Source: Acidobacteria bacterium RIFCSPLOWO2_12_FULL_66_21 (lineage in GTDB: Bacteria > Acidobacteriota > Vicinamibacteria > Vicinamibacterales > 2-12-FULL-66-21). Taken from it: DNA of 32,486 nucleotides. The translations under genes and the position numbers were made by a program. The notes beneath the pieces were generated by a model. It was not told the origin of the DNA. It ran no database searches and worked only from the letters and a program-made list of their open reading frames with translations. Where the stretch lies: NCBI GenBank assembly GCA_001767455.1, contig MELC01000020.1, forward strand, positions 1-32,486, in the 5' to 3' direction. Shown here piece by piece: positions 541-28,320 of this stretch; the stretch's first letter is position 1; every line of letters begins with the position of its first letter.

Positions 541-547
541 CGAGGAC

Positions 548-2368: not shown

Positions 2369-2371
2369 CGA

Positions 2372-4279: not shown

Positions 4280-4364
4280 GACCGCGAACCGGCGGCGCAG
4301 GAAGTTGGAACTCGTAGCTGGAAAGTTTACCGCAGGCCGTTCTCAACGCAACAGGTGGCATACC

Positions 4365-5735: not shown

Positions 5736-5750
5736 AATTGGCGCCCGTTC

Positions 5751-6464: not shown

Positions 6465-6471
6465 CCCTCGG
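6451..6471 (+). other. Perfect 9-bp hairpin just before the beta-subunit start codon
   Basis: CCGAGGGGC (6451-6459) is complementary to GCCCCTCGG (6463-6471) across a GAA loop, giving a perfect 9-bp GC-rich stem that ends 7 bases before the ATG at 6479. The first repeat copy keeps the left arm but has lost the right arm (GCGCGTC instead of GCCCCTC), so only the second copy can fold. There is no T-tract, so an ordinary rho-independent terminator is unlikely. The position suggests an effect on translation initiation or mRNA stability, which is inference. Confidence 0.6.
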
Positions 6472-6478
6472 TGTACAA

Positions 6479-8452: not shown

Positions 8453-10522
8453 ATGGCAAATTCTGGCGTTGCGGGCATCATCACCGACGATGCGGGAGCT
8501 CCGCTCAGCGGAGCCTTCGTGGGCGCCTTTGACACTGACGGGCTCTTTGGAGATCGACTGCTTCGTGATTCGGGGGCACCACTCGCCGCCCCGTTTGCCG
8601 GGTTCGTCCGATCCGCGGCAGACGGCTCTTTTGTCATCTCCTACACGGCCGGCAAGTACACCCTTCAGGTTCGTGTTTTCAGCCACAACAAGCGTCTCCT
8701 CGGCAGCGCGCCGGTCGTGCCGGGAGCCACGAGTCCTCTCGTGACGCTCGCAGCGCCCATCAGAGTGAACGCGGCCGCGGTGACCGCGGCCGCGGCGACC
8801 GGATGGCTGGTTGCCGACGGTGCGTTCCCAACTGCAATTACCGGTTCGAACGTCGACTTCCGGATCGACAACCAGGAATGCTGGGACGAGGTCATCACGG
8901 CGGTCGATGCTGCGGCAACGTCGATTCATTGGATGCTCTTCTACCTCGACATCGGCAAGTGTGTCTTCAGGTTCGATGCCACGAACGTGCCCGCCACCGG
9001 CGGGCGACTGGAAGAGGCATTAAAGGCTGCCGCCCAAAGAAACGTGGTGGTCCGACTGGTCTGCAACGATCTGATTTATAGCAGGCCGAAGGTCGAGGCG
9101 GAAGGTCGCATCGTGCGCTCGCTTCCGTACCCCGTTCACACAGCGAAGCAGGTTGAAGCCTGGTTCGCCCAGAACGCGCCAGCCGTACAGGTTCGCCGGC
9201 TGAAGACTCCGGCCTACATCCCGATACACACGAAATTCGTGGTGATCGACAACTCCAAGGCATTCATCTTTGGCTCGCCATTCGTGCAGGACTACTACGA
9301 CGATTCGCGCCACGCGATCGACAACCCCAGGCACGGCGATTTCTGCAACGTGCCGTGTCAATCCCATGGCATCAAGCAGCCGACACACGACGTCAGCCTG
9401 TTCGTGACTGGAGCAGTTCTCGGGCCGCTCAACGAGACCTTCGCATTGCACTGGAACGCCGCGAAGGCGTCCGGCGAGCCGGACCTGCCGCCGATCGCGC
9501 CGCCTTCGCCCGTGGCTTCGAACGGCACGGTGCAGATCACCCGGACGTTGGCTGGCAACGGGCGCTTCCCAGCCTTCCCTCGCGGCGAAACAACCATCCT
9601 CGATTCCTATCTGCGCGCGATCGGCAAGGCCTCGGACTTCATCTATCTCGAGAACCAGTACTTCACCTGTGAAGAGATCGCCGATGCACTCATCCTGGCG
9701 GTCAAAACGAAACCAGATCTCAACGTCATCTTTCTTACGAATAACGCGGTCGACATTCCCGGATACAAGAAGTGGCAGCCGGCCACCATCTTGCGGGTTC
9801 GTTCAGAGCTCACCGAAGAGGAATTCGGACGGGTGGGCTTCTTCACGCTTTGGAGCCACGAACCCCCCCTGACCACCGGCGGCAAGACGCGGATCTGCAG
9901 AAACTATGTGCACTCGAAAGTGGCTATCGTCGACGACTTGTGGGCCACCGTCGGTTCGGCCAATCTCGACGGCGACTCGCTCGCGTTCAGCCAGAATTCC
10001 GTCCGGGACAGCTACTGGTTCGTCGGGGGAGAGTTCGGGCTTCGGCAGGAGGGCACCCTCACCGAAAACCGCGAGAGCGAGACGAACCTCGTCGTCTACA
10101 ACGGAGTCGACGGCCAGCCTTCGAGCACCCTTCCCGCCGAGTTGCGCCGCCGCCTCTGGGCCGAGCACCTGGGGCTGGCCACGTCGGCGACGGATGCGAC
10201 TCCCAACCCGCAGCACCCGCTTCTCGCGACGAAACCCGACACCGGCTGGCTCAAGCTGTGGCGGATTCGAGCTACCGAGAAGGTCAACAAGTTGAAAGCC
10301 GCCGTCCCCACGGTGGGGGTGACTCGCGTGCTGCCGTATCCCACAAGGCTGGATATGGACACCGATTGGCCGGCCTTCGAGGCGCGACTGGATTGGCACG
10401 TAGAACTTCAAGACCCGCAGTCGTATCTCGAGGCTTTCAGCATCGACGTTTCCAAGCTTGCTCTGTTAAAGCACTATCGACGCTTTTCGTGGGACACGAA
10501 GACGTGGGTGGATGACGAATGA
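8453..10522 (+). CDS. Phospholipase D-like protein with N-terminal beta-sandwich; first gene of the five-gene cluster
   Basis: A 689-residue PLD-superfamily protein. Two HKD motifs are intact: IHTKFVVID (His259, Lys261, Asp266, then FGSPF) and VHSKVAIVD (His487, Lys489, Asp494, then GSANLDGDS 501-509). The segment YLENQYF (399-404) before the second motif is also typical of PLD enzymes acting on phosphodiesters. Residues 1-105 form a separate transthyretin-like domain (GVAGIITDDAGAPLSGA, then DGSFVISY and AGKYTLQVRVF). No signal peptide is present. The ATG at 8453 has GGAG 5 bp upstream. The stop overlaps the start of the DUF6603 gene (ATGA). The family hydrolyses phospholipids or nucleic acids or transfers phosphatidyl groups; the substrate here is unknown. 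It is the only recognisable enzyme of the cluster. Confidence 0.9.
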   Translation: MANSGVAGIITDDAGAPLSGAFVGAFDTDGLFGDRLLRDSGAPLAAPFAGFVRSAADGSFVISYTAGKYTLQVRVFSHNKRLLGSAPVVPGATSPLVTLAAPIRVNAAAVTAAAATGWLVADGAFPTAITGSNVDFRIDNQECWDEVITAVDAAATSIHWMLFYLDIGKCVFRFDATNVPATGGRLEEALKAAAQRNVVVRLVCNDLIYSRPKVEAEGRIVRSLPYPVHTAKQVEAWFAQNAPAVQVRRLKTPAYIPIHTKFVVIDNSKAFIFGSPFVQDYYDDSRHAIDNPRHGDFCNVPCQSHGIKQPTHDVSLFVTGAVLGPLNETFALHWNAAKASGEPDLPPIAPPSPVASNGTVQITRTLAGNGRFPAFPRGETTILDSYLRAIGKASDFIYLENQYFTCEEIADALILAVKTKPDLNVIFLTNNAVDIPGYKKWQPATILRVRSELTEEEFGRVGFFTLWSHEPPLTTGGKTRICRNYVHSKVAIVDDLWATVGSANLDGDSLAFSQNSVRDSYWFVGGEFGLRQEGTLTENRESETNLVVYNGVDGQPSSTLPAELRRRLWAEHLGLATSATDATPNPQHPLLATKPDTGWLKLWRIRATEKVNKLKAAVPTVGVTRVLPYPTRLDMDTDWPAFEARLDWHVELQDPQSYLEAFSIDVSKLALLKHYRRFSWDTKTWVDDE

Positions 10523-13500
10523 CCACGTCCCTCGACAAGCTCGCCGAGACGGTTGCGCTCGCGCTGGTCCCGCTCGGAGAGATGGCCGGGCAGCCCGACA
10601 CGGTCGAAAGTGCGCTCGCAAGCATGGGGTTCGCGCCACCACCTGGCGTCAATCTCGGAACGGTACTCGCGCTCAACCCCACTCCCGTCATCGACAAGCT
10701 CGAAATCCTGCTGCGCTCGACGCCGGAAGAGCAGAAAGACAGCTCGATCATGGGCGGGCGCGCCGCCGATCTGGTCCTGGCTGTCGCCGAGCTGCTCGAG
10801 GCCATCACGCAGTTCGCAAACGACTTGCCGACGACCCTGGCGGCGGCGGGCGACTACGTCACGAAGACCGACATCACCAACGAGCTGCCGCGACGGCTGC
10901 TCGATCTGCTCGTGGTCGGCGCCGTTGGACAAGTCAGTCCCACTGCCGCCTTCGTCTTTCGCACCCTCGGCCTCTTCGGGTACGACCCGTACCCGGCTGG
11001 GCCCTCCATCTACCAACTCGCGCATCGTCGAACGGTCGTCAGGTACGAGCGCCTCCAGGATTTGTTTTCGAATCCCGGCAAGCTTTTCGTCGACGAATAC
11101 GGCTGGAGCACGGCGTCGTTCGACGCCGAAGCGCTGCTCACGAACATCGGGCTGCTCGTTCAGTCGCTCGGGATGCGGCCACTGGTCCGCGACATGCCTC
11201 AGGCGGTTGAGGAGGCGCTGACCGGCCAGCCGATGCCGGGTGCCGTCAGCGATCCCAGTTCACAGTTGCTCTTGCCGATGACGATTCACGGCGGCCCCTT
11301 GGCCGTCGATGTCGCCCTCTCTCTGCACCGGCTGCGGCCAACGTCAGTCAACGGCTCGGATGCCGGGCTCGAGCTGGCCGCGCTCGTCTCCGGTGCCGCA
11401 GACGTCAGCATCCCCCTCTCCACCAATCTGGCGCTGCGTCTCGATGCCAGCCTCGATCTCGGCGCGGGTGTCGGCGTCGCTCTCCGTCCGACGGGTGCCG
11501 AGCTGCGCACCGGGTTTCTCAGCGGGGGAATGCCAGGCGCAGGCGCGTCCGGACGTCTGGGAATCGGCCTGCATCGCGCACGCGCGGACGGCAAGCCTTC
11601 GCAGATTCTCTCCGCCTCCGGAGGGACCCGCATGGAGGCGACCGACATCTTCTTCGAGGTTGGATGCGGGCTGGCGATCGGAAAAAGCCCCGATCCGTAC
11701 ATCGTGGCGGCCGTGGTCGGCGGGCACATCGTCATCGCGCTCGGCGGCGCGGACGGGTTTCTCAGCAAAATCCTGCCGGCGGGAGGAATTGAATCGCGCT
11801 TCGATCTCAAGGTGCACTGGTCGCAGGTTCAGGGTCTGCGGTTCGAGGGCTCCGGGATGCTGGAGATTGCCATTCCGGTGCACGAGACATTGGGACCCTT
11901 CAAGCTCGACGTCATCACGATTGGCCTCGGCTCGATGCAGGGCGGGCTGCGGCTCACGGCCTCCGCAACCGGCGGAATTGCCCTGGGACCGGTGCAGTCG
12001 ACGATTGAGAAAGTGGGCATCAGCGGCAATCTGAAGTTCGTCGCCGGCAATCTCGGGAATGCTGATTTTTCACTGGGCTTCAAGCCGCCGAACGGAGTCG
12101 GGCTCAAGATCGAGGCCGAGGCGGTGACAGGTGGCGGGTATCTCTATTTCGATTTCGATCAGGAATCGTACGCGGGCGTCGCGCAGGTCAAGATCAAGGA
12201 CTTGATCGATATCAAGCTGATCGGACTGCTGACGACCCGGCTGCCCGAGCTCCCCCCGGGGCAGAAGGGCTTCTCGCTCCTGCTCATCGTGTCGGCCGAG
12301 TTCTCGCCGATCACGCTGGCGTTCGGCTTCACGTTGAATGGCGTCGGTGGGCTGATCGGCATCAATCGCAAGATGATGCTCGAGCCGTTGCGCGCCGGCG
12401 TCAAGAGCCGGACGCTGAACTCGATTCTCTTCCCGCAGGATCCGGTTGGACGCGCGACGCAGATCATCAGCGATCTCAAGACCATCTTCCCGCCGGCGCT
12501 GAACCGATTCGTGCTCGGTCCGATGGTCAAGATCGGATGGGGCTCGCCCTCCCTGCTCACGATGGAGATCGGGATCATGATCGAGATCCCGATGCCGGTG
12601 CAGATCGCGCTGTTGGGCATCCTCTCGCTGGAGTTGCCCAACCCGAAGGCGCCGCTCGTTGTCATCCACATGGACATCCTGGGCACGCTCGACGTCGCTC
12701 GGTGCGATGTCTCGATCGTTGCGACGGTGTACGACTCGCGCATCCTGGTGTTCACGCTCACCGGCGACATGGCGATGCGTTTGAACTGGGGCGAGAGTCC
12801 CGAGTTCATCCTCTCGATTGGTGGATTCAACCCGCGCTTCCCGGCGCCGGCGAATTTCCCTCCACTCGGGCGGCTCGCGCTGTCGTTGGCAGCCGGAGAG
12901 AACCCACGGCTCCGTCTCGAGACGTACATCGCGGTCACATCGAATTCGTTCCAGATGGGTGCCAAGGTCGACATCTTTGCATCCACCGACATCGTTATTG
13001 TCGGCAAGCTGACCGCCAGCGCGTATCTCGGGTTCGACTTGCTCTTCCAGTTCGATCCGTTCCATTTCATCGCCGAGCTCTATGGCGGCGCTGACATCCA
13101 GCGCAACGGCAAGTCCATCATTTCGGCCGACCTGCACCTCACGCTGGATGGGCCCGGACCGTTCCACGCCCTTGGCACCGCTTCGGTCAACTTCCTCGGC
13201 AGGCATGAGATCGCCTTCCAGGCGACGATCGGAGAGGCGCAGGCGCCAGAACCGCTGCCTGTCAGCCAGCCGCTGGCGCTGCTGCGCACGGCTCTTGCCG
13301 ACGCGCGCAACTGGAGCGTCGTGCTGCCGGCGCAGCAGGGCGTACCCGTGACGCTGCGGGAGCGGGATCCCGCTGGCGTCGCGCTGCTGCATCCCTTCGG
13401 CGGCGTGAAGTCGCGGCAGACCGTGGTCCCGCTGAACACCGCGATCGAGCGGTTCGGCAACACCGCACCTGATTTCACCGGGCCATTCGTCATCGAGAAG

Positions 13501-14037
13501 ATCGCGCTGCGGGGCACGTCCAAGGTCGTGCAGAAGCCTTCGAGCTTCGTGAAGGAACGCTTCGCTCCCGGACAGTACTTCTCGATGTCGGACGAAGAGA
13601 AGATCTCGCGACCGTCGTTCGAGGTGCGCGATGCCGGCGTCGAGCTGACGTGGCAGCACTTCGACACCGGTGACGCCTTCGATACCGGCCCTGCGATCGC
13701 GGCGGCGTGGGAATACGACACGATAGAAATCGACGTCAAGGACCGCACGCGTGCGAGCGCGATGACGACGGTGACGCCTGCGCTGGCGGGCAGCTGGCTT
13801 GCCGGCTCGGTGAGCCGACAGGCGCGGCTGGCCGAGCCGGGCAGCGCACGCTATGTCGGCACCCGACGCAGGATGACCGTCGCGGATACGGCATATGTCC
13901 TGATTGACGTGAGGACCGGCGTCATCGCGCCAGCCGTGAGTGCCGCGCCGGTCACGTACACCGATGCCCTGGCGGCACGTGACGGAGCGTCGAATCTGAA
14001 GGTCGTCGGCCAGCACGAGGAGCGCGCGAATGACTGA
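10519..14037 (+). CDS. DUF6603-type large beta-rich protein
   Basis: A 1172-residue protein that I recognise as DUF6603-like; the function of that family is not known. The first 240 residues are helical (LDKLAETVALALVPLGE onward). From about residue 255 to 920 the chain is a long series of alternating-hydrophobic strands rich in Gly: VTGGGYLYFDFDQESYAGVA near 535-555, FSLLLIVSAEFSPITLAFGF near 584-604, LFPQDPVGRATQIISDL near 637-655 and FTLTGDMAMRLNWG near 745-760. The C-terminal 230 residues are more mixed. There is no signal peptide or clear membrane helix. The ATG at 10519 overlaps the PLD-like stop and has GGTGG 7 bp upstream. The strand pattern resembles an elongated beta-sheet or groove; a lipid-handling role next to a PLD-like enzyme is possible but unproven. 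Confidence 0.8.
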   Translation: MTTSLDKLAETVALALVPLGEMAGQPDTVESALASMGFAPPPGVNLGTVLALNPTPVIDKLEILLRSTPEEQKDSSIMGGRAADLVLAVAELLEAITQFANDLPTTLAAAGDYVTKTDITNELPRRLLDLLVVGAVGQVSPTAAFVFRTLGLFGYDPYPAGPSIYQLAHRRTVVRYERLQDLFSNPGKLFVDEYGWSTASFDAEALLTNIGLLVQSLGMRPLVRDMPQAVEEALTGQPMPGAVSDPSSQLLLPMTIHGGPLAVDVALSLHRLRPTSVNGSDAGLELAALVSGAADVSIPLSTNLALRLDASLDLGAGVGVALRPTGAELRTGFLSGGMPGAGASGRLGIGLHRARADGKPSQILSASGGTRMEATDIFFEVGCGLAIGKSPDPYIVAAVVGGHIVIALGGADGFLSKILPAGGIESRFDLKVHWSQVQGLRFEGSGMLEIAIPVHETLGPFKLDVITIGLGSMQGGLRLTASATGGIALGPVQSTIEKVGISGNLKFVAGNLGNADFSLGFKPPNGVGLKIEAEAVTGGGYLYFDFDQESYAGVAQVKIKDLIDIKLIGLLTTRLPELPPGQKGFSLLLIVSAEFSPITLAFGFTLNGVGGLIGINRKMMLEPLRAGVKSRTLNSILFPQDPVGRATQIISDLKTIFPPALNRFVLGPMVKIGWGSPSLLTMEIGIMIEIPMPVQIALLGILSLELPNPKAPLVVIHMDILGTLDVARCDVSIVATVYDSRILVFTLTGDMAMRLNWGESPEFILSIGGFNPRFPAPANFPPLGRLALSLAAGENPRLRLETYIAVTSNSFQMGAKVDIFASTDIVIVGKLTASAYLGFDLLFQFDPFHFIAELYGGADIQRNGKSIISADLHLTLDGPGPFHALGTASVNFLGRHEIAFQATIGEAQAPEPLPVSQPLALLRTALADARNWSVVLPAQQGVPVTLRERDPAGVALLHPFGGVKSRQTVVPLNTAIERFGNTAPDFTGPFVIEKIALRGTSKVVQKPSSFVKERFAPGQYFSMSDEEKISRPSFEVRDAGVELTWQHFDTGDAFDTGPAIAAAWEYDTIEIDVKDRTRASAMTTVTPALAGSWLAGSVSRQARLAEPGSARYVGTRRRMTVADTAYVLIDVRTGVIAPAVSAAPVTYTDALAARDGASNLKVVGQHEERAND

Positions 14038-17000
14038 TCTCGTGTTTCTGCCCTGGGCCCGGCGTGGATTCGCGCGCGCAATCGCGCCGACGAGAAGCCA
14101 GGCCACCCGCGCCAACCCACCCATTACCCTCGACGTCTCGCTGACCGCCGACTCCGCGGGCGCCGTCGCGACGTCGGCGCATCTGCTCGGACCGGGCGAC
14201 GTGGTGGGCATCGACCTGCGGCAGGTCCTCAAGACCGATCCACCGTCCAACAGCTTCGACTTCGAGCCGAACTATCTCGCGTCGATCGAGTTCAAAGCGG
14301 CGGACCTTCCATGGATGTTCACGCCATGGACGCATGACAGCAATCGATTGGAGCCGTGGATCGCGCTGATCGTGCTGGAAAAACTCTCCGACGACCTGAT
14401 CAAGTCCGACCCGACCCGCCCGCTCCCGTTCGTCACGATCGCGTCGGGCGCAGATCTGCCGAACCTGTCGCAGAGTTGGGCCTGGGCGCACGTGCAGGTC
14501 TCGGGGGCGATCGACCAGGCCGATGCGCGCAGGAAGCTCGAGTCCGCGCCCGAGTCATGCCTGTCGCGGGTGATCTGTCCGCGCCGCCTCGACAGCCGCA
14601 AGATCTACGTAGCGTGCGTCGTTCCCGCGTTCGAAGTCGGCCGGAAGGCGGGGCTCGGCATTCCGCTCGCGGTCTCTGACCTCGAGGGGCAGAAGAGCAC
14701 ACGCTTCGCGTGGACGGCTGCCGACAGCCATTTCGACGTGCCGGTCTATCACTCGTGGGAGTTCGGCACGGGTGCCGGCGGCGACTTCGAGTCGCTCGTC
14801 TGGGACCTGCAGCGACCAAGCGAGCCACACGCCGACGAAATGGCGGGCCTCGGCCGGGTGCCGATGAACGTCGTATCGCCCTCCTGGCCAGCCGTGCCGG
14901 CGGACGCGCCGCCGGTGTTCTTCGAAGGTGCGTTGCAGCCGGTGGCAGCGGTCGCGCCGACCGCGTCGGCACCAGCAGCCTTCACCGCCCGATTGAACGC
15001 CGCGCTCAACACCGCGGTGCCCGGAACCGCGGGCGGCGGCGATCCTGAATTGCCGCTGCCGCCTCCTCTGTACGGCCGATGGCACGCGGGCAGGTCCACT
15101 GTGCCGAAACCGACCGACACGAAGGCGTGGGTCGCCACGCTCAACCTGGATCTCGGGTTGCGCGCCGCCGCAGGGCTGGGTGCGAGGATCGTGGAGGAGC
15201 AACAGGAGTCGTTGATGGCGGCCGCGTGGCAGCAGGTCGGCGAGATCGAGCGTGCCAACCAACTGCTGCGTCAGGGTCAACTGTCGCGATCGGGAAGCGT
15301 GGCGCTGTTCAAAAGCCGGTTCGAGTCGATGGCACCGGCGACGCTGCTTCAGCTTGCAGCCCCTGTGGCGTCGCGGGTGGCCGACCGCTGGTCGAAGTCC
15401 GCGGTGCTCGGCAAGATGCCGAAGGAAACGCTGGCGGCTCACCTGAGCCGGTATGACGTGTCCGGCAGCGTGCTGAGCGCACAGTTCCGCCGCGCGACGC
15501 GGGCACGCGGTCCCCTGGCGCGTCGGTTCGGCCGCGCCGGCGCATGGTCCGCCGCGCTGATCGAGCGCTGGAACGAGGGCGCGATCTCGCCCGACCGCGG
15601 GAGACGCCAGCCGCCTGGAACGTTCACCATCGACGACGTGACGCGCGGCCGCAGCGGACTGCTGCGCGTGTGCCAGTTGAACACGTCGCGTCTCGGAAAC
15701 GAGCGCGCACTCGCCTTCGGTCCATTTGAAGGGGTGAACGCGAAGCTCGCGCCGCTGCTCGAGTCGTTGCCGTCGACGATCGCGGCCGTGGCCCCGTACC
15801 CCGGCCTGGTGGAGGTCGTCAAACGGTTCGCAGGCAGTGCAACGAGGCTGCAGCGTGCGGCGCAGGGCCCGCATGTCGATTGGCGTGACGCGCTCGAAGC
15901 GATCCGCGAGCTGATTCTGCTGCAGGCGGCGCTGTTCTCGGCGCTCGGGCGCGCCAGCCTCGGCGTCGCCGCGGCCGCGGACGTGCGGGCGCGATTTGAG
16001 GCGTTTCGCCAATGGATTGCCGCGAGTCTGTTCCCTGCCCCTACGCAGCAGGAATCGCTTCGACTTCAGCGCCAATTCCTGATTGACCTGGCGCTCATCG
16101 ACGCGCAAGCGGGAATGCCGGCCTGCGCGTCCAGACGGCCGTCGCGCAAGCCGAAGCTGGATCTCGAGCACATCGCGGCAGTGCTGCTCAGACGACTCGA
16201 CCCCCGGCACACGATCTCAGCGCACGTGAAAGCGCGCATCGGGATGGGCGGCCGGACGTTCGAGTTTCACACCCGCAGCGACGGCGACGAGCTGGAGCCG
16301 GTGATGGCCGCGCCGCGCTTCGATTTGCCGATGTACAAGCCGCTAGTCGAACTCTCGCCGGAATACTTGCTGCCGGGCATCCAGGGTGTGCCCCGCAATT
16401 CCATCGGTCTGCTCCAGTCGAATCGCCGATTCATCGAAGCCTTCATGGTGGGCCTCAATCATGAGTTGGCGAGCGAGCTGCTGTGGCGGGAATTCCCGAC
16501 GGACCAACGCGGCACGTACTTCCATCACTTTTGGGATACGACGGCGGCCGCGCAACCCGCCGCCGACATCGGCGAGATCAGCGAGTGGACCGGCCTTCCT
16601 CTCGGCGAGAATGTTCCAGCGCAGACCACTGCGAACCCGGCGGTGCTCGTGCTGCGTGGCGATCTCGCGCGCCGGTATCCGCGTGTCCTCATCTTCATGC
16701 AACAGGCAAAGTGGACCGGCACGGGCGCGACGGCGCGGCGCACTCTCGGCACGCAGACCGTACAACCCACCTTCCGCGGGACGCTGCCTCCGGACGTCAC
16801 CTTTCTGGGCTTTCCGGCCCTCGAGGCCATTGCGTTGATCGGCTCGGAGGACCCCAACGCGAACGACCCGGGCTACTTCCTGGTGCTACAGGAACCGATC
16901 GGCGAGCTGCGGTTTGGCTTGAACGAGACGGCGCCCGACCTTCTCGAGAATACCTGGCGCGACCTCGCCTGGCCCAATGTCACCGTCACCAACCACCACC

Positions 17001-17161
17001 TCGATCTCGCCGGCCCGACGGCGCCCGCGGCGCCCACCACCGCAAACAAAGCCGCGTTCGGGATGACGTCAGATGCGGCGCAGATGGCGTACATCCTGTT
17101 GCAGCGTCCGGTGCGCGTGGCGCTGCACGCGAGCGATCTCATCATGGCGGGTGCCCAATGA
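14030..17161 (+). CDS. Uncharacterised 1043-aa cluster protein (PWIALIVL / GLNHELASELLWREFPTDQRG family)
   Basis: No function can be assigned. The protein has strongly conserved-looking blocks: PWIALIVLEKL near residue 109, SRVICPRRLDSRKIYVA and VPAFEVGRKAGLG near 179-210, PPLYGRWHAG near 346, a helical stretch QESLMAAAWQQVGEIERANQ near 390-410, FMVGLNHELASELLWREFP near 808-826 followed by TDQRGTYFHHFWD, and VLVLRGDLARRYPRVLIFMQ in the last fifth. From memory, similar blocks occur in hypothetical proteins of unrelated phyla in comparable neighbourhoods; that is recall, not a search. No signal peptide, membrane segment or catalytic motif is evident. The start overlaps the DUF6603 stop by 8 bases and has GAGGAG 7 bp upstream. 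The stop overlaps the giant gene start (ATGA). Confidence 0.8.
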   Translation: MTDLVFLPWARRGFARAIAPTRSQATRANPPITLDVSLTADSAGAVATSAHLLGPGDVVGIDLRQVLKTDPPSNSFDFEPNYLASIEFKAADLPWMFTPWTHDSNRLEPWIALIVLEKLSDDLIKSDPTRPLPFVTIASGADLPNLSQSWAWAHVQVSGAIDQADARRKLESAPESCLSRVICPRRLDSRKIYVACVVPAFEVGRKAGLGIPLAVSDLEGQKSTRFAWTAADSHFDVPVYHSWEFGTGAGGDFESLVWDLQRPSEPHADEMAGLGRVPMNVVSPSWPAVPADAPPVFFEGALQPVAAVAPTASAPAAFTARLNAALNTAVPGTAGGGDPELPLPPPLYGRWHAGRSTVPKPTDTKAWVATLNLDLGLRAAAGLGARIVEEQQESLMAAAWQQVGEIERANQLLRQGQLSRSGSVALFKSRFESMAPATLLQLAAPVASRVADRWSKSAVLGKMPKETLAAHLSRYDVSGSVLSAQFRRATRARGPLARRFGRAGAWSAALIERWNEGAISPDRGRRQPPGTFTIDDVTRGRSGLLRVCQLNTSRLGNERALAFGPFEGVNAKLAPLLESLPSTIAAVAPYPGLVEVVKRFAGSATRLQRAAQGPHVDWRDALEAIRELILLQAALFSALGRASLGVAAAADVRARFEAFRQWIAASLFPAPTQQESLRLQRQFLIDLALIDAQAGMPACASRRPSRKPKLDLEHIAAVLLRRLDPRHTISAHVKARIGMGGRTFEFHTRSDGDELEPVMAAPRFDLPMYKPLVELSPEYLLPGIQGVPRNSIGLLQSNRRFIEAFMVGLNHELASELLWREFPTDQRGTYFHHFWDTTAAAQPAADIGEISEWTGLPLGENVPAQTTANPAVLVLRGDLARRYPRVLIFMQQAKWTGTGATARRTLGTQTVQPTFRGTLPPDVTFLGFPALEAIALIGSEDPNANDPGYFLVLQEPIGELRFGLNETAPDLLENTWRDLAWPNVTVTNHHLDLAGPTAPAAPTTANKAAFGMTSDAAQMAYILLQRPVRVALHASDLIMAGAQ

Positions 17162-20100
17162 CGCTGTACGAGCTGCTCGAAGAGCAGCGGCAAATCCACG
17201 CGCTCGAGCAGCAGGTGCGCACGCTTGCGCAGCGGATTGCCGCGTGGACCGTGGAGAGCGAAGTGCTCACACTCCGCCTGTCCGCTGCTGTTGCCGAGGA
17301 GAACGCGGCCCAGGGCGCACTCGACCGCGCCTCGGCCGCCCGTGCGCGGTTCGACGCGGCCGGCACGGATGCGAAGTCGATCGGCGAGGCCCGCGCGACC
17401 GGCGCAGGCAAGATCAAAGAGCAGGATCGCCGGATCGCCGAGATCGAAGCGCTCGATGATCGCACGCGCCTTCGTTTCGCCCGCCAGTTGGCTGCCCTCC
17501 GCGCCGGACGCGCCTCGCTGCAAGCCGGCGTTGACGATTTCGACCGCCGACTCGCCGGGATCGAGGCTGAGCGCGCGAGCCTCTCGCGCGAGTTCGCAAG
17601 CCTGACTGAGCTGCAGGCTACCTTCGACGCTCGACGCGATAACCGACTGCGTCTCGAAGCGGAGAGGCAAGCACTGCGGTCGCGCATCGACAAGGCGAGC
17701 GCCGAGCTCCGGGCCGCGCAGTCCAGCCTCGCCATTCTTGTCGGCGCCCACGCCGCACACCTTGCCGGGCTGCTCGACCAACTCGTGCCCGGCGTCCCGC
17801 TTGCGCTTCTGCCGGTCAGGCTCGAGACCCGTTTCCAACAGCACAACTCCGAGCTGCTCGTGCGCGTGTACCCGGACGACGTGCACATGGACACGCACGA
17901 GTCCGAGCTCACGGCGCAGGAGGACGCCTGGGGACGTGATTTCTGGAATCGGGCCTGGTCATCGGGACCGGGGAAGAGTCAGGACCTCGATCGCGCGCGC
18001 CTCGCGCTCTGGCAGGTGCTGGCGGGAAAGTTCGGGCCCGTGCGCGCATCCTGGATCGTGTCGGCGGTACGCCCCACCAATCTCGAGCGCTGGGGCGACG
18101 ATCCCACCGCCGTGCCGAGCTTCCCCCCGAGCGACAACCTGCGCACGGGCATGTGGACGCGCGCCGCCCAGGCCCGTTGTCTTCCCGACCGTTGGCTGGT
18201 GCTCGGCTACGTCGGAAACGATCGGGTGATCGAGCAGTGGGGCAGCGTGATCGAGGCGCCGCTGCATGCCGGGCCCGATCCTGGCGCGGCGCCCGGACAG
18301 ATCGGCCACGTCGACGCCGGCATGCTGTGGATGGTGGACTTCGCCGCAGCCGAGCGCGCGGGAATGGGAGTCCGTGTGGCGTTGCCACCAAACGCGCGCG
18401 GTGGCCTCGATCGCCTCATCGTCGTGGGTACGCGAGCGACGCGCACGCCAGCGGAATCGGTTGACGATCTCGTCCAACTCCTGACGGCGCATCGATACAC
18501 CTGGACGCTCGATCTCGTGGAACAGGGCACGCCCACCAACAACACCGAGAGCGCGCGCTCGGGCTTCGACTCGCGCGATCGCGACTACGAGCAGACCTAC
18601 CGCGCGGCTGTCAGCAGACTCCTCGAGGGAAGCGCGGCCGCTCCGGGCGTCACGCGCGATCAAGAGATGCTGGCGGAGGCGCTCGGCGTGCCGGCCGCGG
18701 TCTTCGAGTCGGTCGCGCACAATCAGCTGACGGAACAGCACGATGCGGCGCTGATGCAGCACGTGCTGTGGCCGGCCACCTGGGGCTATTACCTGCGCGA
18801 GGGATTCGGCGGCGCGCTTCGGGATCGCAACGTCGACCTCGAGCCGTGGCGCGACTTCTACACACGGTACGTTCGCGCCCGCGGTCCGCTGCCGTCGCTC
18901 CGCGTTGGACGCCAGCCGTACGGCGTTCTGCCGGTGACGAGCCTCGACCTGTGGCAGCCGACGCTGCCCGAGCCCGAGATCCTGCTGTTGTACGCATCTG
19001 CCGGCGCGAGCGAGATCCTGTGCGCCATCGGTTGGGATCTGCAATCCGACGGTACGCTTGCCGGCGGGTGGTCGTCACCGCAACCGATTCCCTATGGCGG
19101 ATCGGGCACCGTCGCGCTGGGGGGGGCGCTGACGCGCTTTCCCAGTCACAGCGCGCCGGATCTGTTCGTTCTCGTCGCGTCGAGGGCGGGTCCGCTCGCC
19201 GTCGCCGCCGTGCGGGCGCTCTCCCCTACTGGCGTGTTCTCGGCAGGCTTCGGCAGTCCGCAGCCGGTACCTGGCCGTGCCGGCGATAGAGTCGTCGCGG
19301 CCAGTCTGGACGTCGCGCCAATCCACGATGCACGGTCGCGAGACCTGATCGCGCTGCGACTGGTCGCCGCCGGCGCGTCAACCTCGTACGAGCTGCTGCT
19401 GGCCATCGGCCGCAACGCGAATCGCGACGGCGTGCCGCTCGATGGCTGGACGCGCGCGATGTCCGTGCCGGGCGTCTGGAACAGCAAGATAATCGATGTC
19501 GCGGTCGCAGCGGACGACATCGACGGAGACGGACTCGCGGAAATCGTCGTGGCCGCGTTGGTGGATACGGGCGTCGGCGTCGAAGTGCGCATACTCATTG
19601 CGTCGGATGTGCAGCGGGCAGCCACCCCAACCTGGTCTTCGGCAACCGTGGTCCAGTTTCCGCCAATCACTTTCAGCCAGTGTCGTGGCCTGGATCTGGC
19701 GTTCTACCGCACGGGTGCCGGCGCAGCGGTCAGCGCGCTCCTCACGATCGTCACCGACGACGGCGCAAGCAGCCTGGCACGGACGTGGTGCAGGCGTCAG
19801 TTCTCGAGCACGGACCTGCACAAGAACTGGGATCCGACGGGACCGCCGTATGCGTTGCCGCCGGGTGCGGTGAACATCGGGGTCGCCGCCTGGGATCTGG
19901 GCCGCCGATCGGACGTCTCGGTGCAGGGCGGCGAGGTGTCGCTCGTCAATCTGATGTCGAAGCTCCGGACAGCGTGGCGAGCGGCACTGCCCGCGCTGCC
20001 CAACTACGCCGCGGCATCCGGCAGCGGCGGAGTCGCAGACCCCGACGCAAACCTGCTCGGGTCGCTCGCCCTGACCCCGCTCGGCGGCGCCCTCGCGGTT

Positions 20101-23100
20101 CGCCCGGCGACCGGCCCGGCGTACCTCGAGAGTCTCTACCGGCTCGCTCGCACCGCGTTTCCCCCCGGCTTTCTCGACGCGTCGCGAGTGGATCTCGAGC
20201 ACGTGCTCGCGTCTCTCGGGCTGGACGAGCTGCTGCAGACACACCCAGACGAATCCACGCGCTGGACGTCGATCCGGTTCACTCCCCAGGAGCTCAACGT
20301 CGACGAGCCGTGGGTGCAGGCCGGACCGAGGCCGGCCGGGACGCGACTGGCGACGCCGCTGGCCGGCGGACTGAACTACCTCGCCTGGCTCGCCACGGCG
20401 TCGCCGGAAGAGATACACGACTTGAACCTGCCACCCGGAGTCGATCCGAGTGTGCTCTTTCGCGTGGCGCGGCACGCGGTGCTGCAGGAGTACTCGGACG
20501 CAGCCCGGCAGCGTGAGTTCGGGTCGTCCTATCCCATGCGGGGATACCACGAGCCGGAGATCGTCGATCCGCCCGATATCGTCGAGAACATGTTGTTCGA
20601 GGCGCGATCGAAGACGCGCACGGCCTGGCGCATCCTGTCCGACCCGACGGGTACGCAAACCGAGCCTGCCGGCGCGACGATCCATCGTGAGCTCGCCGCC
20701 GGCGGCGCGCGCGACTTGCGGTTGCTCGAGCACAGCGCGGACGCGCTGCGGGCGCTGGCGGACCGCCCGGTCGATGCGCTCGAACGGTTGACGAAGGAAG
20801 CGCTCGACCTCGCATCGCACCGCCTGGATGCGTGGATTACCGCGATCGGGTGGCGCCGGCTGGTGGAGAGCCGGGGACCATCCGGCGTCACTGGCATTCA
20901 CGTCGGCGGCTTCGGTTGGGTGGAGAACCTCAAGCCGCGCGCCGCGGACGGCATGAGCGATGGATACGTGCACGCGCCGTCGCTGAATCACGCCGTGACC
21001 GCGGCGATCCTGCGCTCGGGCTATCGGACGCACCAGGGCGACGGTACCGAAGGCCATCTGTCGATCGATCTTTCGTCGCGTCGAGTGCGCGCGGCGCTTC
21101 GCCTGTTGAACGGCGTGAGCGAAGGGCAATCGATGGGCGCGCTGCTCGGATACGACTTCGAGCGCAGCATACACGAAGGCTTTCCGGCGCTGGAGCTGGA
21201 CGCATACATCGACGTCTTTCGGCAGAAGTATCCTCTCGTCATAGGCAAGCTCACGCCGCTGGCAGCAGTGGATGCAGCGGTGACCGGCGAACAGCTCGGC
21301 GCACGCAACGTGGTGGACGGGCTCGCCCTTGTCAAGCGATTCCAGGCAGGTAAGGAATCCGGACACTGGGACGCGAGCACCGTTGACTGGACCTCTCTCT
21401 TCGGACTGGCAGCGCCGCCCGACGGCGGTTTTCCGAGCTTCTATTCTCAGTCCGGCGGCTCGCGGCAGTCCGAGATCGCGTACAACGCGGTGGTCACCAC
21501 GATCGTGCGACTCGAGGACACGCTCGATGCAGTGGCCGACCTGCTCCTCTCCGAATCGGTGTTCCAGCACGTGCAGGGAAACTACCTGCGTGCCGGTGCG
21601 AGCCTCGACGCTTTGGGGCGAGGCGAGGCGTGCCCGACCGAGTTCGACGTGCTGCGCACACCTCGCACAGGCCAGGCGGTGACGCACACCGTCGCGCTGA
21701 CGATCGGCGTCGGCGAACATGTCGATCAGCGCGCCGTGCGGCGGTGGCTCACGGAAAAGCAGCTGGCCAAGGGAATGAGCCCGCGCGCGCTGGCCGAACC
21801 ACGACTCGACCACTGGCTGGCGCAGGTGCTTCCCGACCCGGCGCGCGTGCGGTGCGACGTGGAGTATCAACACGCTGACGGGAGCGCCCTGCAACACCCG
21901 CGGCAGATCGTGCGGCTGTCCGACTTGCACGTGGCACCGCTGGACGCGCTGGCCTGGCTGGCCGACGGCGCCACCGCGGGCCTGGGCGACCTTGAGTTGC
22001 GCGTACTGCGCGCCGAAGCGAGCGCGCGGTCTTTCGTTCTCGAGGCCGAGGCCAGGCGCGCGATTCAATTCTCCCGAACGGCACGCTTCGGCCCCGATGA
22101 CGTGAGCGTTCCGGAGTTCCTCGAGTTGACGCGGGCGATACGCGCCCTGCTGGCGGACGCGAGACCGTTGCAACCGGATGACTTCCGTGAGCTCGGCGTG
22201 CCGCCCGACAACATCGATCTCGCGGACCTGCGAACCCGCGCGCAAACCGCCACGCGCGGTTTCCAGGCTGCGGTCGACAGGCTCGTCCCCGACCTCGAGC
22301 ATCTCGCGGCCGACGAACTGGCCGACCTGCTGACGACGTTCGCGGGTTACGGCGTCGGCGGAGCATTTCCGGCCGCCGGCAGCAAAGAAAAAGGCGCGTT
22401 GCGTGACCAACTGCGCTCTGTCGCGTTGCGCGTGCGCGCCACGGAACGACAGCTTCAGCGGCTCCTCGCCGCCGAACCGGCCAGCGACGCTCCCGCGGCA
22501 GAACAAGCGTCGCACTACGTCGCTCGCCTGAAGACACTGTTCGGAGACAGCTTCGTCGTGCTGCCGGTGCTCGCCACGGGCGCCGCCACGATTGAGAGCG
22601 CGTTCGTCACGCGTGACCACGCGGGCGATGCGTCGCGCGAAAAGGTGGAGGCCTGGCTCCATCGTGCCGCCCAGGTGCGACGCCCGTTGCAGGCATTTGA
22701 GAACGTGATGCTGTATGCAGAAGCGATGGGCGCGGAGGACACCCTCAATCTGCGTGTCGCGCAGAGCACGCCGGCCAGCGCCAGCGACGACGTGTGGGTA
22801 GGGGCAGCGCAGCGCAGCAGCAATGGCTCACGATTCGCCGGACGTGCCTCCTGGGTCACGCACGTGGCGAGTCAGGGCGCGGACGATTCCGTCTGTGGTC
22901 TGCACCTCGACCGGTGGGTGGAAGTCGTCCCTGCGCCGGTCGAAACCACCGGCGTCGCCTTCCATTGCGATGCGCCTCAAGCGACGGCACCGCAGGCCAT
23001 CCTGCTCGCCATTCCGCCCAATCCGCGCAAATCGTGGGACGTCGCCTCGCTGGAAGCGGTGCTGCTCGAGACGCTCGATTTGGCCAAGCTGCGTATGGTG

Positions 23101-23220
23101 GATTCAGAACGCCGTCCCACGCTGGGACACTTCCTGCCGGCGCTGCTGTTTGCCCGCAACTCGGGCGATGCGCTGCGCGGCGATACGATCGCGACCAACT
23201 ACGGAACCACGCCGGAGTGA
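17158..23220 (+). CDS. Giant 2020-aa cluster protein: coiled coil, FG-GAP-like insert, conserved helical core
   Basis: The largest gene in the window, function unknown. Residues about 5-195 are heptad-rich coiled coil (LLEEQRQIHALEQQVRTLAQ onward). A conserved-looking segment follows: LALLPVRLETRF and LLVRVYPDDVHMDTHE near 220-250. GRQPYGVLPVTSLDLW near 583-600 leads into about 320 residues of beta-propeller-like sequence with an FG-GAP calcium-loop motif (DDIDGDGLAEIVVAALVD near 785-802). Beyond it lie IHVGGFGWVENLKP near 1245-1259, GYVHAPSLNHAVTAAILRSGY near 1268-1288 and LLNGVSEGQSMGALLGYDFE near 1315-1334. There is no signal peptide. The ATG at 17158 is chosen because it overlaps the upstream stop (ATGA) and the coiled coil begins there; the frame is open to 16483, but that part shadows the upstream gene. 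Size and domains suggest a scaffold or structural component. Confidence 0.8.
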   Translation: MTLYELLEEQRQIHALEQQVRTLAQRIAAWTVESEVLTLRLSAAVAEENAAQGALDRASAARARFDAAGTDAKSIGEARATGAGKIKEQDRRIAEIEALDDRTRLRFARQLAALRAGRASLQAGVDDFDRRLAGIEAERASLSREFASLTELQATFDARRDNRLRLEAERQALRSRIDKASAELRAAQSSLAILVGAHAAHLAGLLDQLVPGVPLALLPVRLETRFQQHNSELLVRVYPDDVHMDTHESELTAQEDAWGRDFWNRAWSSGPGKSQDLDRARLALWQVLAGKFGPVRASWIVSAVRPTNLERWGDDPTAVPSFPPSDNLRTGMWTRAAQARCLPDRWLVLGYVGNDRVIEQWGSVIEAPLHAGPDPGAAPGQIGHVDAGMLWMVDFAAAERAGMGVRVALPPNARGGLDRLIVVGTRATRTPAESVDDLVQLLTAHRYTWTLDLVEQGTPTNNTESARSGFDSRDRDYEQTYRAAVSRLLEGSAAAPGVTRDQEMLAEALGVPAAVFESVAHNQLTEQHDAALMQHVLWPATWGYYLREGFGGALRDRNVDLEPWRDFYTRYVRARGPLPSLRVGRQPYGVLPVTSLDLWQPTLPEPEILLLYASAGASEILCAIGWDLQSDGTLAGGWSSPQPIPYGGSGTVALGGALTRFPSHSAPDLFVLVASRAGPLAVAAVRALSPTGVFSAGFGSPQPVPGRAGDRVVAASLDVAPIHDARSRDLIALRLVAAGASTSYELLLAIGRNANRDGVPLDGWTRAMSVPGVWNSKIIDVAVAADDIDGDGLAEIVVAALVDTGVGVEVRILIASDVQRAATPTWSSATVVQFPPITFSQCRGLDLAFYRTGAGAAVSALLTIVTDDGASSLARTWCRRQFSSTDLHKNWDPTGPPYALPPGAVNIGVAAWDLGRRSDVSVQGGEVSLVNLMSKLRTAWRAALPALPNYAAASGSGGVADPDANLLGSLALTPLGGALAVRPATGPAYLESLYRLARTAFPPGFLDASRVDLEHVLASLGLDELLQTHPDESTRWTSIRFTPQELNVDEPWVQAGPRPAGTRLATPLAGGLNYLAWLATASPEEIHDLNLPPGVDPSVLFRVARHAVLQEYSDAARQREFGSSYPMRGYHEPEIVDPPDIVENMLFEARSKTRTAWRILSDPTGTQTEPAGATIHRELAAGGARDLRLLEHSADALRALADRPVDALERLTKEALDLASHRLDAWITAIGWRRLVESRGPSGVTGIHVGGFGWVENLKPRAADGMSDGYVHAPSLNHAVTAAILRSGYRTHQGDGTEGHLSIDLSSRRVRAALRLLNGVSEGQSMGALLGYDFERSIHEGFPALELDAYIDVFRQKYPLVIGKLTPLAAVDAAVTGEQLGARNVVDGLALVKRFQAGKESGHWDASTVDWTSLFGLAAPPDGGFPSFYSQSGGSRQSEIAYNAVVTTIVRLEDTLDAVADLLLSESVFQHVQGNYLRAGASLDALGRGEACPTEFDVLRTPRTGQAVTHTVALTIGVGEHVDQRAVRRWLTEKQLAKGMSPRALAEPRLDHWLAQVLPDPARVRCDVEYQHADGSALQHPRQIVRLSDLHVAPLDALAWLADGATAGLGDLELRVLRAEASARSFVLEAEARRAIQFSRTARFGPDDVSVPEFLELTRAIRALLADARPLQPDDFRELGVPPDNIDLADLRTRAQTATRGFQAAVDRLVPDLEHLAADELADLLTTFAGYGVGGAFPAAGSKEKGALRDQLRSVALRVRATERQLQRLLAAEPASDAPAAEQASHYVARLKTLFGDSFVVLPVLATGAATIESAFVTRDHAGDASREKVEAWLHRAAQVRRPLQAFENVMLYAEAMGAEDTLNLRVAQSTPASASDDVWVGAAQRSSNGSRFAGRASWVTHVASQGADDSVCGLHLDRWVEVVPAPVETTGVAFHCDAPQATAPQAILLAIPPNPRKSWDVASLEAVLLETLDLAKLRMVDSERRPTLGHFLPALLFARNSGDALRGDTIATNYGTTPE

Positions 23221-23221
23221 C

Positions 23222-24931
23222 ATGACATCCTTCACGAACTGGCTCCGCTTCGAACCTCGGCCGCGCACGACGTCTCTCGAGGAGAGCTTCGAGGCGCGCG
23301 TGCACGATCCGCTTTGGCTGCTCGGCCGACAGTGGCAGCTCGGCGAGTTCCAGGGAGAGGACGTGGGGACGCCTGTGCATGTGCGGCTTTCGGTCGCCGA
23401 TGCGCAGCTCGATGCCGTGGCGGTGGGAGCCGAAGTGCGTCCATACGACCCGGAAGTCCAGCCGTTGGAGATGCTCGTCGAACAGGAAGCGCTGCCTGAA
23501 ACAGCGGCGGCGGCGTGGCGGCGTGGCGCGCTGCACGGCCTCCAATTCCTGCGCATGCTCGACGCGCCGTTGTTCGCGCGCTACCGCGCGGAGATCGTCA
23601 GGCGGTACGCTCTCGCGGTCGCTCCGGCCAACGCAAATGCCGACCATCCGCTGGACCAGGCCTTCAAGGCGGTGACCGCCGGTCGTCTGCCGGACGGGTT
23701 TCTCATGGCGGCCGAATGGAGGCCGTGGGTCAAGGGACAGACAGCACCGCCAGCATTCATCCTCACGGGCGACGTCGATCTCTTCCGAGGCATCGCCGAA
23801 CGTTGGCTCGGCTGGCGACAGACGGTCCTCGCCCAGCCTGCGGATGCGGAAAGCGCGTGGTCGCCGGCGCGACTGAGCTATGCCGTTGCTGTGTCCGCGG
23901 CGAACCCTGACACGACGTCGAAGGCCACGCGCGTCGTCCTCGAGGCACCAGATTATCGCGGTGGCCGATTGGATTGGTATTCGTTCGATGCGGGTCAGCC
24001 CGGCCCCTTGTCACGACGACCGTCCGCAAACGTCCGCACACAGTCGAGTGTCCTCTTGCCGACCGCGCTCGCGTTCCGTGGCATGCCATCCCCGCGTTGG
24101 TGGGAATTCGAGGACGGCACCGTTGCGCTGGGCAACACGGATGTCGCGCCGGAAGATCTGGCGCGACTGCTGCTTCTGGAATTCGCCTTTTGTTACGCGA
24201 ACGACTACTTCGTCGTTCCGTTGCAGTTGACGCCTGGCGCCCTTTGCCACATCACAGAGCTCGTGGTCACGAACACGTTCGGGGATTTGATACCAGTCGA
24301 TCCGGCCTCATCGCAGGCATCGACCGGAAAGCCGTGGCGCATGTTCGTGCTCAATGAAGGCGTCGCCGATCAGTTGCCCAGCTTCTTCCTCGCGCCCGCG
24401 CTCCCGCCCACTGTCGATGGCGGGATCATGGAGGAGGTCTTTCTGACGCGCGACGAGATGGCCAACGTCGCGTGGGCGTTTGAAAAAACGGTGGAGAGTC
24501 CGACAGGGTATGCGCTTCACCTGCAAGAACGTGCGAGCGGGGACGCCGAGGCCGTTGCAGCAACGTCGCCCCCGCTGGACGCCTGGACGTATACGCTCGC
24601 CTCGCGGGTGCCAGACGGCTGGCTTCCATATGTACCCGTCCAGATGGCCCGAGTGAATGGCGTCCGGCCGCGCGCCGTGCAGTTGCAGCGGGTCAGCGCT
24701 CGAACGCCATCCAGTGTTCTCCTCCGGACGCCCGGCGCCAACCTCGTGAACGAAGAAGAGGTGCCCCGTCGTGGTGTTCGCATCACCAGGTCCTACCAGT
24801 TGGCACGCTGGATCAACGGGGAGACGTACGTGTGGAGCACTCGCGCCGTCGCTGCCGGCCGAGGCGAGTCCGCGAGCGGCCTGCACTTCGATGCCCTATC
24901 CGTGGCGACCAGAACCGAATCAGCCAAGTAG
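23222..24931 (+). CDS. Uncharacterised 569-aa cluster protein (DPLWLLGRQWQLGEFQGED family); last gene of the cluster
   Basis: No function can be assigned. The N-terminus carries a very recognisable block, WLRFEPRPR then DPLWLLGRQWQLGEFQGED (residues about 28-46), which I recall from hypothetical proteins in large operons of other bacteria. The remainder mixes helices (LARLLLLEFAFCYANDYFVV) and strands, with a C-terminal segment RITRSYQLARWINGETYVW resembling a structural or capping domain. No signal peptide or membrane helix is visible. The ATG at 23222 lies one base after the giant gene stop, with GGAG just upstream, so the two are translationally coupled. The frame is open back to 22823, but that part is a shadow of the giant gene. 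It closes the cluster. Confidence 0.8.
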   Translation: MTSFTNWLRFEPRPRTTSLEESFEARVHDPLWLLGRQWQLGEFQGEDVGTPVHVRLSVADAQLDAVAVGAEVRPYDPEVQPLEMLVEQEALPETAAAAWRRGALHGLQFLRMLDAPLFARYRAEIVRRYALAVAPANANADHPLDQAFKAVTAGRLPDGFLMAAEWRPWVKGQTAPPAFILTGDVDLFRGIAERWLGWRQTVLAQPADAESAWSPARLSYAVAVSAANPDTTSKATRVVLEAPDYRGGRLDWYSFDAGQPGPLSRRPSANVRTQSSVLLPTALAFRGMPSPRWWEFEDGTVALGNTDVAPEDLARLLLLEFAFCYANDYFVVPLQLTPGALCHITELVVTNTFGDLIPVDPASSQASTGKPWRMFVLNEGVADQLPSFFLAPALPPTVDGGIMEEVFLTRDEMANVAWAFEKTVESPTGYALHLQERASGDAEAVAATSPPLDAWTYTLASRVPDGWLPYVPVQMARVNGVRPRAVQLQRVSARTPSSVLLRTPGANLVNEEEVPRRGVRITRSYQLARWINGETYVWSTRAVAAGRGESASGLHFDALSVATRTESAK

Positions 24932-28149: not shown

Positions 28150-28320
28150 CGCTTGGATGGGCCTGAATCGCTCGAGTCCGGCGTCGCGCTGGTTGTCCAC
28201 CCGGCCAGTGTACCGAGCGCGCTGAGCCCGGCGCTGTCCGGTAGAGCACACCCGCCCGCCGCGCGCTACAGGTCCGTCCATCGCGGCGACGTTCCCCGCA
28301 AAGGGTGCGTTGTGACGGGC

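Follow-up and report, generated by a model that had tools for sequence, protein, structure and literature searches.

The window analysed here is a stretch of 32,486 nucleotides (positions 1 to 32,486 of contig MELC01000020.1, assembly GCA_001767455.1) from Acidobacteria bacterium RIFCSPLOWO2_12_FULL_66_21. Five head-to-tail genes, designated P1 to P5, occupy positions 8453-24931 of its plus strand. The cluster had been pointed out in a preliminary description made from the sequence alone, and all five open reading frames (ORFs) were found where that description had placed them. P1 (8453-10522, 689 aa) encodes a phospholipase D (PLD)-like protein, P2 (10519-14037, 1172 aa) a DUF6603 protein, P3 (14030-17161, 1043 aa) a protein without a named domain, P4 (17158-23220, 2020 aa) a protein without a named core domain, and P5 (23222-24931) a protein of 569 aa. 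Relatives covering more than 60% of the protein length were found for P3 (56), P4 (58), and P5 (65). The sequence also agreed with the junctions as first described: P1/P2 and P3/P4 share ATGA overlaps (10519-10522 and 17158-17161, respectively), P2/P3 overlap by 8 bases (14030-14037), and a single base at 23221 separates P4 from P5, the bases reading TGA-C-ATG. ORF calling offered an alternative upstream ATG at 22823 for the last ORF; the start at 23222 was adopted because relatives such as that of locus L002 align from residue 1 of that start. Hydropathy on the Kyte-Doolittle scale reached 2.0 in no 19-residue window of P1 to P5 (highest 1.96 in P2 and 1.94 in P4), in line with the earlier statement that clear membrane helices are absent. 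A scan for promoters and terminators gave no promoter-like site, and its seven terminator-like sites were fewer than in shuffled sequences (mean 10.7), so the scan is uninformative on transcription.

P1 belongs to the PLD superfamily, with which it shares PLDc_2 (4.7e-17 in Pfam, with PLDc at 1e-7) and two HKD motifs (HxKxxxxD) within PLD-like domains. These motifs, already noticed at the outset, start at residues 259 (9227-9250) and 487 (9911-9934). Its N-terminal stretch (residues 6-95, 8468-8737) resembles CarboxypepD_reg (E 6.3e-5; 23.7 bits, below the cut-off of 32.3). Repeated matches to the same domain type were seen in two adjoining proteins encoded on the minus strand of the window (548-2368 and 2372-4279). 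The assignment of the second protein to DUF6603 (PF20248) was confirmed with E 1e-122: the domain spans residues 454-1026 (11878-13596) and covers profile positions 1-501 of 502 with 410.7 bits against a cut-off of 27. The Pfam entry gives no function for this full-length domain, which in the window is tied to three further families and to the enzyme encoded in front of it. As had been described, P3 to P5 carry no assigned domain: P3 and P5 had no Pfam or NCBIfam match at E up to 1, and P4 had weak FG-GAP and weak coiled-coil-type matches only.

Conservation of the P2 to P5 gene set

Loci were collected by a scan with P5, which finds close relatives only, using one genome per species; 65 loci were obtained. 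Gene order was counted over the window and 64 of these loci, L066 being left out on account of a match of 46 residues only. P2-P3-P4-P5 occurred in this order in 43 of the 65. The other 22 comprised 16 truncated loci (at a contig end or, for L028, at the limit of the fetched flank), two ORF-calling failures (L031 and L053, which contain the genes that a codon-based gene caller missed), and four real variants. One of the latter, L010, a metagenome-assembled genome (MAG), carries P4 and P5 in a single ORF, which could be a lost stop; the other three are taken up below. Where the genes directly adjoin, gaps of at most 30 nt were found at 38 of 42 P2-P3, 32 of 40 P3-P4, and 57 of 60 P4-P5 junctions. 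Furthermore, the distances among P3 and among P5 proteins were correlated (r 0.92 over 57 operons), with a maximum of 0.18 in 1000 permutations.

The carriers fall into eight phyla by record names, namely Nitrospira, Acidobacteriota groups, Actinomycetota, Bacteroidota, Nostoc, Myxococcota, Pseudomonadota (Paracoccus and a Steroidobacter MAG), and a Cloacimonadota MAG in which the gene order is rearranged. A further locus (L051) is labelled 'Patescibacteria' MAG; it may be mis-binned, because its gene sizes and its 248-aa partner are those of the Myxococcales/Deltaproteobacteria loci L050 and L052. P5 was also present on 15 plasmid records, which add Streptomyces, Nocardia, Gemmatirosa, Rhizobium, Paraburkholderia, and four haloarchaeal genera. 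In the Salinigranum and Natrinema plasmid records, P2 to P5 are all present and in order. Gene-order co-occurrence across phyla, proposed at the outset as a check, was thus observed, and since the arrangement recurs in unrelated phyla it is beyond chance.

Some loci depart from a single set. In Nitrospira, four of the six loci for which more upstream sequence was taken in carry a duplicated P2 (L009, L012, L015, and L024); one copy was found in L030 and none beside P3 in L016. On the Streptomyces plasmid (L137), P5 stands without P2 to P4 in the preceding 17 kb, and IS5 transposase genes lie nearby. About 10-15 kb past P5 on the Rhizobium lusitanum plasmid (L134:28716-34005) are three further genes, two annotated as GH25 lysozymes and one with a glucosaminidase domain.

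Within the phylum of the window, the spread was patchy. Among 396 genomes, its own included, P5 was found in at least 7, P3 in at least 8, and DUF6603 in 10; the P3 and P5 counts are lower bounds, as the best two or three candidates per genome were scored. In the family of the window, 3 of 12 genomes, its own included, have P5. The preliminary description had named unlinked, scattered homologues as the outcome that would speak against it. For P3 and P5 the result was the opposite: they occur together in at least 6 of the 396 genomes, and the exceptions are fragmentary. Two cases of P3 without P5 were seen: in a genome of 76% completeness, close to the start of a contig and next to a DUF6603 fragment, and as a short, stop-containing fragment (E 8e-5). 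P5 without P3 was represented by one broken copy (G205). DUF6603, however, does occur apart from them, as discussed below.

Divergent DUF6603 clusters, here called type II, were found on another contig of the same genome (C50) and in the genomes G221 and G126. The C50 cluster (L141, 1-19179; genes at 166-9567, minus strand) is tightly spaced, lies near a contig end, and encodes proteins of 197 aa, 995 aa (DUF6603), 718 aa (P3-like), and 1216 aa. An hhalign comparison with three rows on one side relates the 718-aa protein and its G221 and G126 counterparts to P3 (probability 97.5, E 5.6e-12). Like the window, these clusters have DUF6603 followed by a P3 relative and another large protein; unlike in the window, the large protein has no detectable relationship to P4 or P5. 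DUF6603 lies inside giant proteins of 3364 aa in G221 and 3283 aa in G126. The former (L138:3656-13747) has PGAP1-like and alpha/beta-hydrolase matches, both below the cut-off, and its cluster is followed by a Sortilin/BNR gene; in G126, the corresponding end of the cluster has an astacin-like gene nearby. The combination of DUF6603, a P3-type protein, and a propeller or hydrolase theme therefore recurs, in part, in distant relatives. Two further proteins were not counted, as they had no Pfam match: a 343-aa protein near the G355 cluster, PLD-like by eye, and a 1191-aa G126 protein, propeller-like by eye.

The exchangeable gene in front of P2

The gene preceding P2 varied among the loci and often encoded a hydrolase: a PLD, a PhoD-like phosphatase, a subtilase, a trypsin-like peptidase, or an M64 peptidase. 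The proteins linked to this slot were grouped with phmmer. Genes more than 130 bases from P2 or P5 and those of 150 aa or less were left out, genes between P2 and P3 were included at any gap size, and genes of nine further operons (three of G047, one each of G104, G125, G307, G418, L132, and L133) were picked by hand. The groups comprised 18 PhoD-like proteins, 7 PLD proteins including that of the window, 7 proteins of a joint S8/trypsin-like group, and 4 M64 proteins; the slot proteins of L022, L027, L054, and L133 are cut at the N-terminus. Three S8 genes and one M64 gene precede the second P2 copy of Nitrospira loci and not the operon front.

Pfam searches with representatives identified S8 in L038 and L043, M64 in L009 and L019, and PLD in L056. 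In the PhoD-like group, L002 matched PhoD (29.9 bits against a cut-off of 27) and L062 matched DUF7800 only. The Trypsin match was just above the cut-off in G418 and below it in G307. Enzymes were also found behind P5, namely GH10 in L033, PLD in L049, and an M64-like protein in G047. The slot proteins of L017, L057, and G047 operon 3 have no known family. Among the linked proteins were also peptidoglycan-binding ones, one of which has an M23 match just below the cut-off.

Subsequently, slot types were placed on a quick tree of P5 from 36 operons, in which the window sits on a long branch. The eight labels were assigned by hand from the phmmer groups and from Pfam on representatives instead of row by row, with L031 labelled from separate evidence. 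Slot type required 11 changes on this tree, against a possible minimum of 7 and a shuffled mean of 16.8; a given type therefore appears to be inherited for a time and then exchanged. The PLD label required four changes, three of which were forced by well-supported branches. For example, the PLD operon of Rhizocola (L056) is sister to the PhoD operon of the Steroidobacter MAG (L018) with support 100, and the PLD operon 2 of G047 is sister to the PhoD operon of L033 with support 99.

Exchange was also visible within one genome. G047, from the family of the window, carries three complete, diverged operons within about 58 kb of contig C77 (L115-L118, 1-66000), one of them on the opposite strand, and each has a different front gene. 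The front gene of operon 1 encodes 275 aa with a DUF2515 match below the cut-off, and the PLD of this genome (Pfam 1e-32) has no phmmer link to the PLD of the window. Two slot-linked proteins of G047 (L115:2324-4735, minus strand, and L117:3448-5166, plus strand) share, by eye, an APFCxHxCxHxHWRWG-type motif that looks metal-binding from its residues; the former also has a matrixin match near its C-terminus, below the cut-off.

Taken together, P2 to P5 very probably form a fixed chassis with an exchangeable slot in front. The original idea that the PLD enzyme is the effector and the other proteins the body stood insofar as an exchangeable part can be set against a fixed P2 to P5 (by gene order, the r of 0.92, the P4-P5 fusion, and the slot swaps). 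The inclusion of the PLD in a five-protein complex of fixed ratio gained no support, as the slot enzyme is swapped among relatives, and neither did the suggested multi-megadalton scale.

Features of the P2 to P5 proteins

An AlphaFold2 model of P2, made from a 49-row alignment with many partial rows, had a predicted local distance difference test score (pLDDT) of 78.9 and a predicted template modelling score (pTM) of 0.52. It consists of a helical N-terminal part followed by strands, and a long amphipathic beta-meander of 40 predicted strands was delimited at residues 248-904 (11260-13230) by the model and by strand alternation. Hydropathy alternated with p<0.05 in 19 of the 33 P2 strands of at least 7 residues, with face means of +2.24 and -0.73, compared with 2 of 10 strands in P5. 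Alternating strands with one hydrophobic face are the pattern of membrane barrels and lipid-binding sheets. In a Foldseek search with the model, the top of the list was made up largely of pilus ushers (FimD best, E 3.7e-5); porins followed, and ApoB100 was at rank 9 (E 1.1e-3). By VIA, porins and related barrels had Z 10.9-13.2 with a root-mean-square deviation (rmsd) of 10.3-13.5 A among the 50 matches listed. In its predicted form, P2 would thus share an up-and-down meander with ushers and porins and is not a proven barrel, and the model suggests contact with lipid or membrane. By the hydropathy test, the N-terminus of P2 in the window reached a maximum of 1.8, without the export signal of an outer-membrane beta-barrel. 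An ordinary outer-membrane protein is unlikely because members occur in Actinomycetota and haloarchaea.

P4 begins with a predicted coiled coil (17179-17733), indicated by weak SMC-like matches within residues 7-192; in Nitrospira, this part is a separate gene of about 270 aa. Residues 607-922 (18976-19923) form an FG-GAP-propeller-like insert of 316 residues, present in fewer than 35% of the other rows of alignment A3. The insert has a DxDxDG stretch and weak FG-GAP similarity (E 0.026-0.057, below the curated cut-off), and searched alone it had no credible relative among PDB sequence profiles. FG-GAP_3 was found inside P3 of L022 (44.3 bits) and L065 (40.5 bits) with a cut-off of 26.9, and below the cut-off in L017 and L031. 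In four loci (L019, L040, L042, and L043), P2 and P3 are separated by a gene of 378-396 aa; that of L019 is Kelch by Pfam, and the others are counterparts by grouping. Propeller-type modules therefore seem to sit at different places, FG-GAP-like ones in P4 or P3 and Kelch between P2 and P3.

A segment of P4 (residues 1325-1461, 21130-21540) is related to a segment of P5 (residues 100-204, 23519-23833) that is helical in the AlphaFold2 model; the relation is weak (hhalign probability 76.5, E 2.2e-5). A corresponding comparison of P3 with P4 and P5 showed no such relation. The P5 model (47-row alignment) had pLDDT 78.5 and pTM 0.75, and its fold had no match at E 1e-3 in PDB or the viral BFVD. 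A relationship of P5 to FN3 was rejected, since the best VIA rows reached only Z 4.0 with rmsd 2.7-3.2 over 62-69 residues. In the haloarchaeon Salinigranum (L132:17001-19715), P5 carries the annotation of a lamin tail domain protein and, being 904 residues long, has a large C-terminal extension.

Signal-peptide-like N-termini (hydropathy of at least 2.2) were seen in 3 of 52 P2, none of 56 P3, 64 P4, and 64 P5, and none of 65 slot-linked proteins, some of the last being N-terminally cut. Over whole proteins, a 19-residue window reached 2.2 in one P3 and one P4.

Comparison with known systems and possible function

Searches with PDB sequence profiles gave no credible solved relative of P2 to P5. 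In PHROGs, P1 matched a family of unknown function at 2e-5, P2, P3, and P5 had no match at E up to 1, and P4 had only an SbcC-like match with E 0.35; accordingly, no tube, sheath, baseplate, or spike family of phage tails, tailocins, or extracellular contractile injection systems (eCIS) was found among P1 to P5, the five proteins scanned. An IMG/VR scan found no relative. The record MT835531.1, named 'Bacteriophage sp.', contains P3, P4, P5, and the end of P2; it was not counted, because it is flagged as unverified and lacks annotation, and because inspection of the remaining ORFs by eye, no search having been made with them, gave no impression of a phage. A full-text literature search, whose coverage leaves out most subscription papers and preprints, found no description of the system.

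P1 shares the two HKD motifs with cardiolipin synthases and with DrmC of DISARM, and in both comparisons it remained far below the curated cut-offs: 39.8 against 290 for TIGR04265 and 44.4 against 281 for PRK11263 among the cardiolipin synthases, and 34.8 against 133 bits for DrmC. The other DISARM proteins had no match among P1 to P5 at E up to 1 in PADLOC. Tc toxin complexes and eCIS would be similar only in the way they work, with a large body, recognition modules, and an exchangeable enzyme; their families had no sequence match in P1 to P5 (Pfam at E up to 1, PHROGs, and, for P2 to P5, PDB profiles). None of the known systems tested had its defining families represented in P1 to P5, and on this ground the assembly would represent a new kind.

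The chassis is likely to form a physical assembly, as judged from the P4-P5 fusion and the co-inheritance of its genes. What such an assembly might do is more evenly balanced: we give about an even chance to a modular assembly of cytoplasmic origin whose exchangeable enzyme is delivered to a target in a membrane or envelope. The chassis would be synthesised in the cytoplasm and would assemble with the hydrolase. The one-sided hydrophobic beta-sheet of P2, as predicted from structure and sequence pattern, would engage lipid or membrane. P3 to P5 would form the body, the P4-P5 fusion and the related P4/P5 segment being suggestive of contact. Propellers are common recognition modules, and the lineage-variable propeller-like inserts or genes might provide target recognition. 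The assembly would then be released, through lysis or in some other way, and bring the hydrolase to an envelope, membrane, or polymer, to judge from the usual substrates of such enzymes. A target outside the cytosol is our best guess, given that lipids, phosphodiesters, or proteins are the substrates of the slot enzymes, that propellers often serve in recognition, and that one face of P2 is very hydrophobic. A more specific form, in which these are a class of hydrolase-bearing particles, not derived from phage tails and common to bacteria and archaea, that combine a four-protein chassis, a membrane-engaging beta-sheet, and interchangeable enzymes directed to other cells, is put forward tentatively and is rather doubtful.

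Several observations weigh against delivery by a chassis with a front slot. Three loci break the gene order: L057 reads P4-P5-P2-P3, P3 and P4 are split in L027, and in L016 no P2 adjoins P3-P4-P5 even with a further 19.6 kb of upstream sequence. DUF6603 stands without P3 or P5 at its site in 4 of 10 genomes (contig C50 of the window's own genome, G126, G221, and G355). Moreover, a same-strand gene lies within 30 nt ahead of the first P2 in 21 of 35 loci with a called upstream gene, 9 of these 21 sharing the 4-nt overlap seen in the window, and no slot gene was found near P2 in L046, L047, L049, and L063. GH10 and several slot-linked proteins of no known family indicate no single target class. 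For P2, the pTM of 0.52 and the rmsd of 10.3-13.5 A to PDB matches fit a barrel, a groove, and a packed sheet alike. Mutual binding of the proteins is presumed. The weakest point is export: no system for secretion or lysis was seen to be linked with the operon, none having been specifically searched for.

The main rival explanation is that the chassis stays inside the cell and restrains the hydrolase until a trigger such as phage or stress, whereupon the cell is killed or dismantled, as in antiphage defence or programmed death. The near absence of signal-peptide-like N-termini on chassis and slot-linked proteins in the hydropathy test would suit such a machine, and the patchy spread (at least 7 of 396 phylum genomes) and the plasmid copies fit accessory systems; many slot proteins are, moreover, proteases, PLDs, or phosphatases. 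Nevertheless, the linked peptidoglycan-binding proteins and the GH10 enzyme make little sense inside a cell. In PADLOC, P2, P3, and P5 had no match, P4 a chance-level one, and P1 only the weak match to DrmC. When 129 flanking proteins from 25 loci were compared with PADLOC, without a control set, 29 models matched; among the matches listed, which cover 25 of the 29 models, 24 models matched one protein each, a few of them strongly, and no defence family recurred in more than two flanking proteins. Antiphage defence, one of the options first considered, thus received no support from the profiles or the flanking genes, and we consider an intracellular machine unlikely.

Two other readings are still less probable, to about the same degree. 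In one, P2 is a lipid-binding groove or belt whose lipid cargo is processed by the PLD and PhoD-like enzymes; the relevant comparison, besides ApoB, is with repeating-beta-groove proteins. The P2 strands are hydrophobic on one side, ApoB100 is among the Foldseek matches, and PhoD-like proteins are the commonest slot group with PLD among the next, whereas the better-scoring matches are mostly pilus ushers, and the S8, M64, and trypsin-like proteases at the same position and the linked GH10 do not act on lipids.

In the other, the set is a toxin complex with P2 as its pore, Tc-like in architecture but unrelated in sequence: the Tc layout of a membrane-inserting part, a propeller-bearing shell, and an exchangeable enzyme would be echoed by the barrel-like meander (FimD, and porins or related barrels with Z up to 13.2 and rmsd 10.3-13.5 A), the FG-GAP inserts, and the swappable enzyme, but the slot enzymes of these loci have genes of their own, Pfam matched P1 to P5 to no Tc or RHS family, and no PDB sequence match was credible.

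If the delivery of an enzyme by the chassis is true, a new protein delivery route would be at hand; if the assembly stays inside, it would be a new way of restraining dangerous hydrolases. A four-gene unit of about 4,800 residues, ordered from Acidobacteriota to haloarchaea and with its enzyme repeatedly exchanged, would be an unnamed general-purpose machine. In either case its function is directly testable through the slot, since one payload can be replaced by another while the chassis is left as it is.

Downstream of P5, on the minus strand of the window (26114-28281), an ORF that is receiver/PAS-like by eye (27385-28281) overlaps in a different frame an ORF with EAL and SLT matches (26114-27985); the region may contain a signalling gene, broken or frameshifted, next to one for a lytic transglycosylase.

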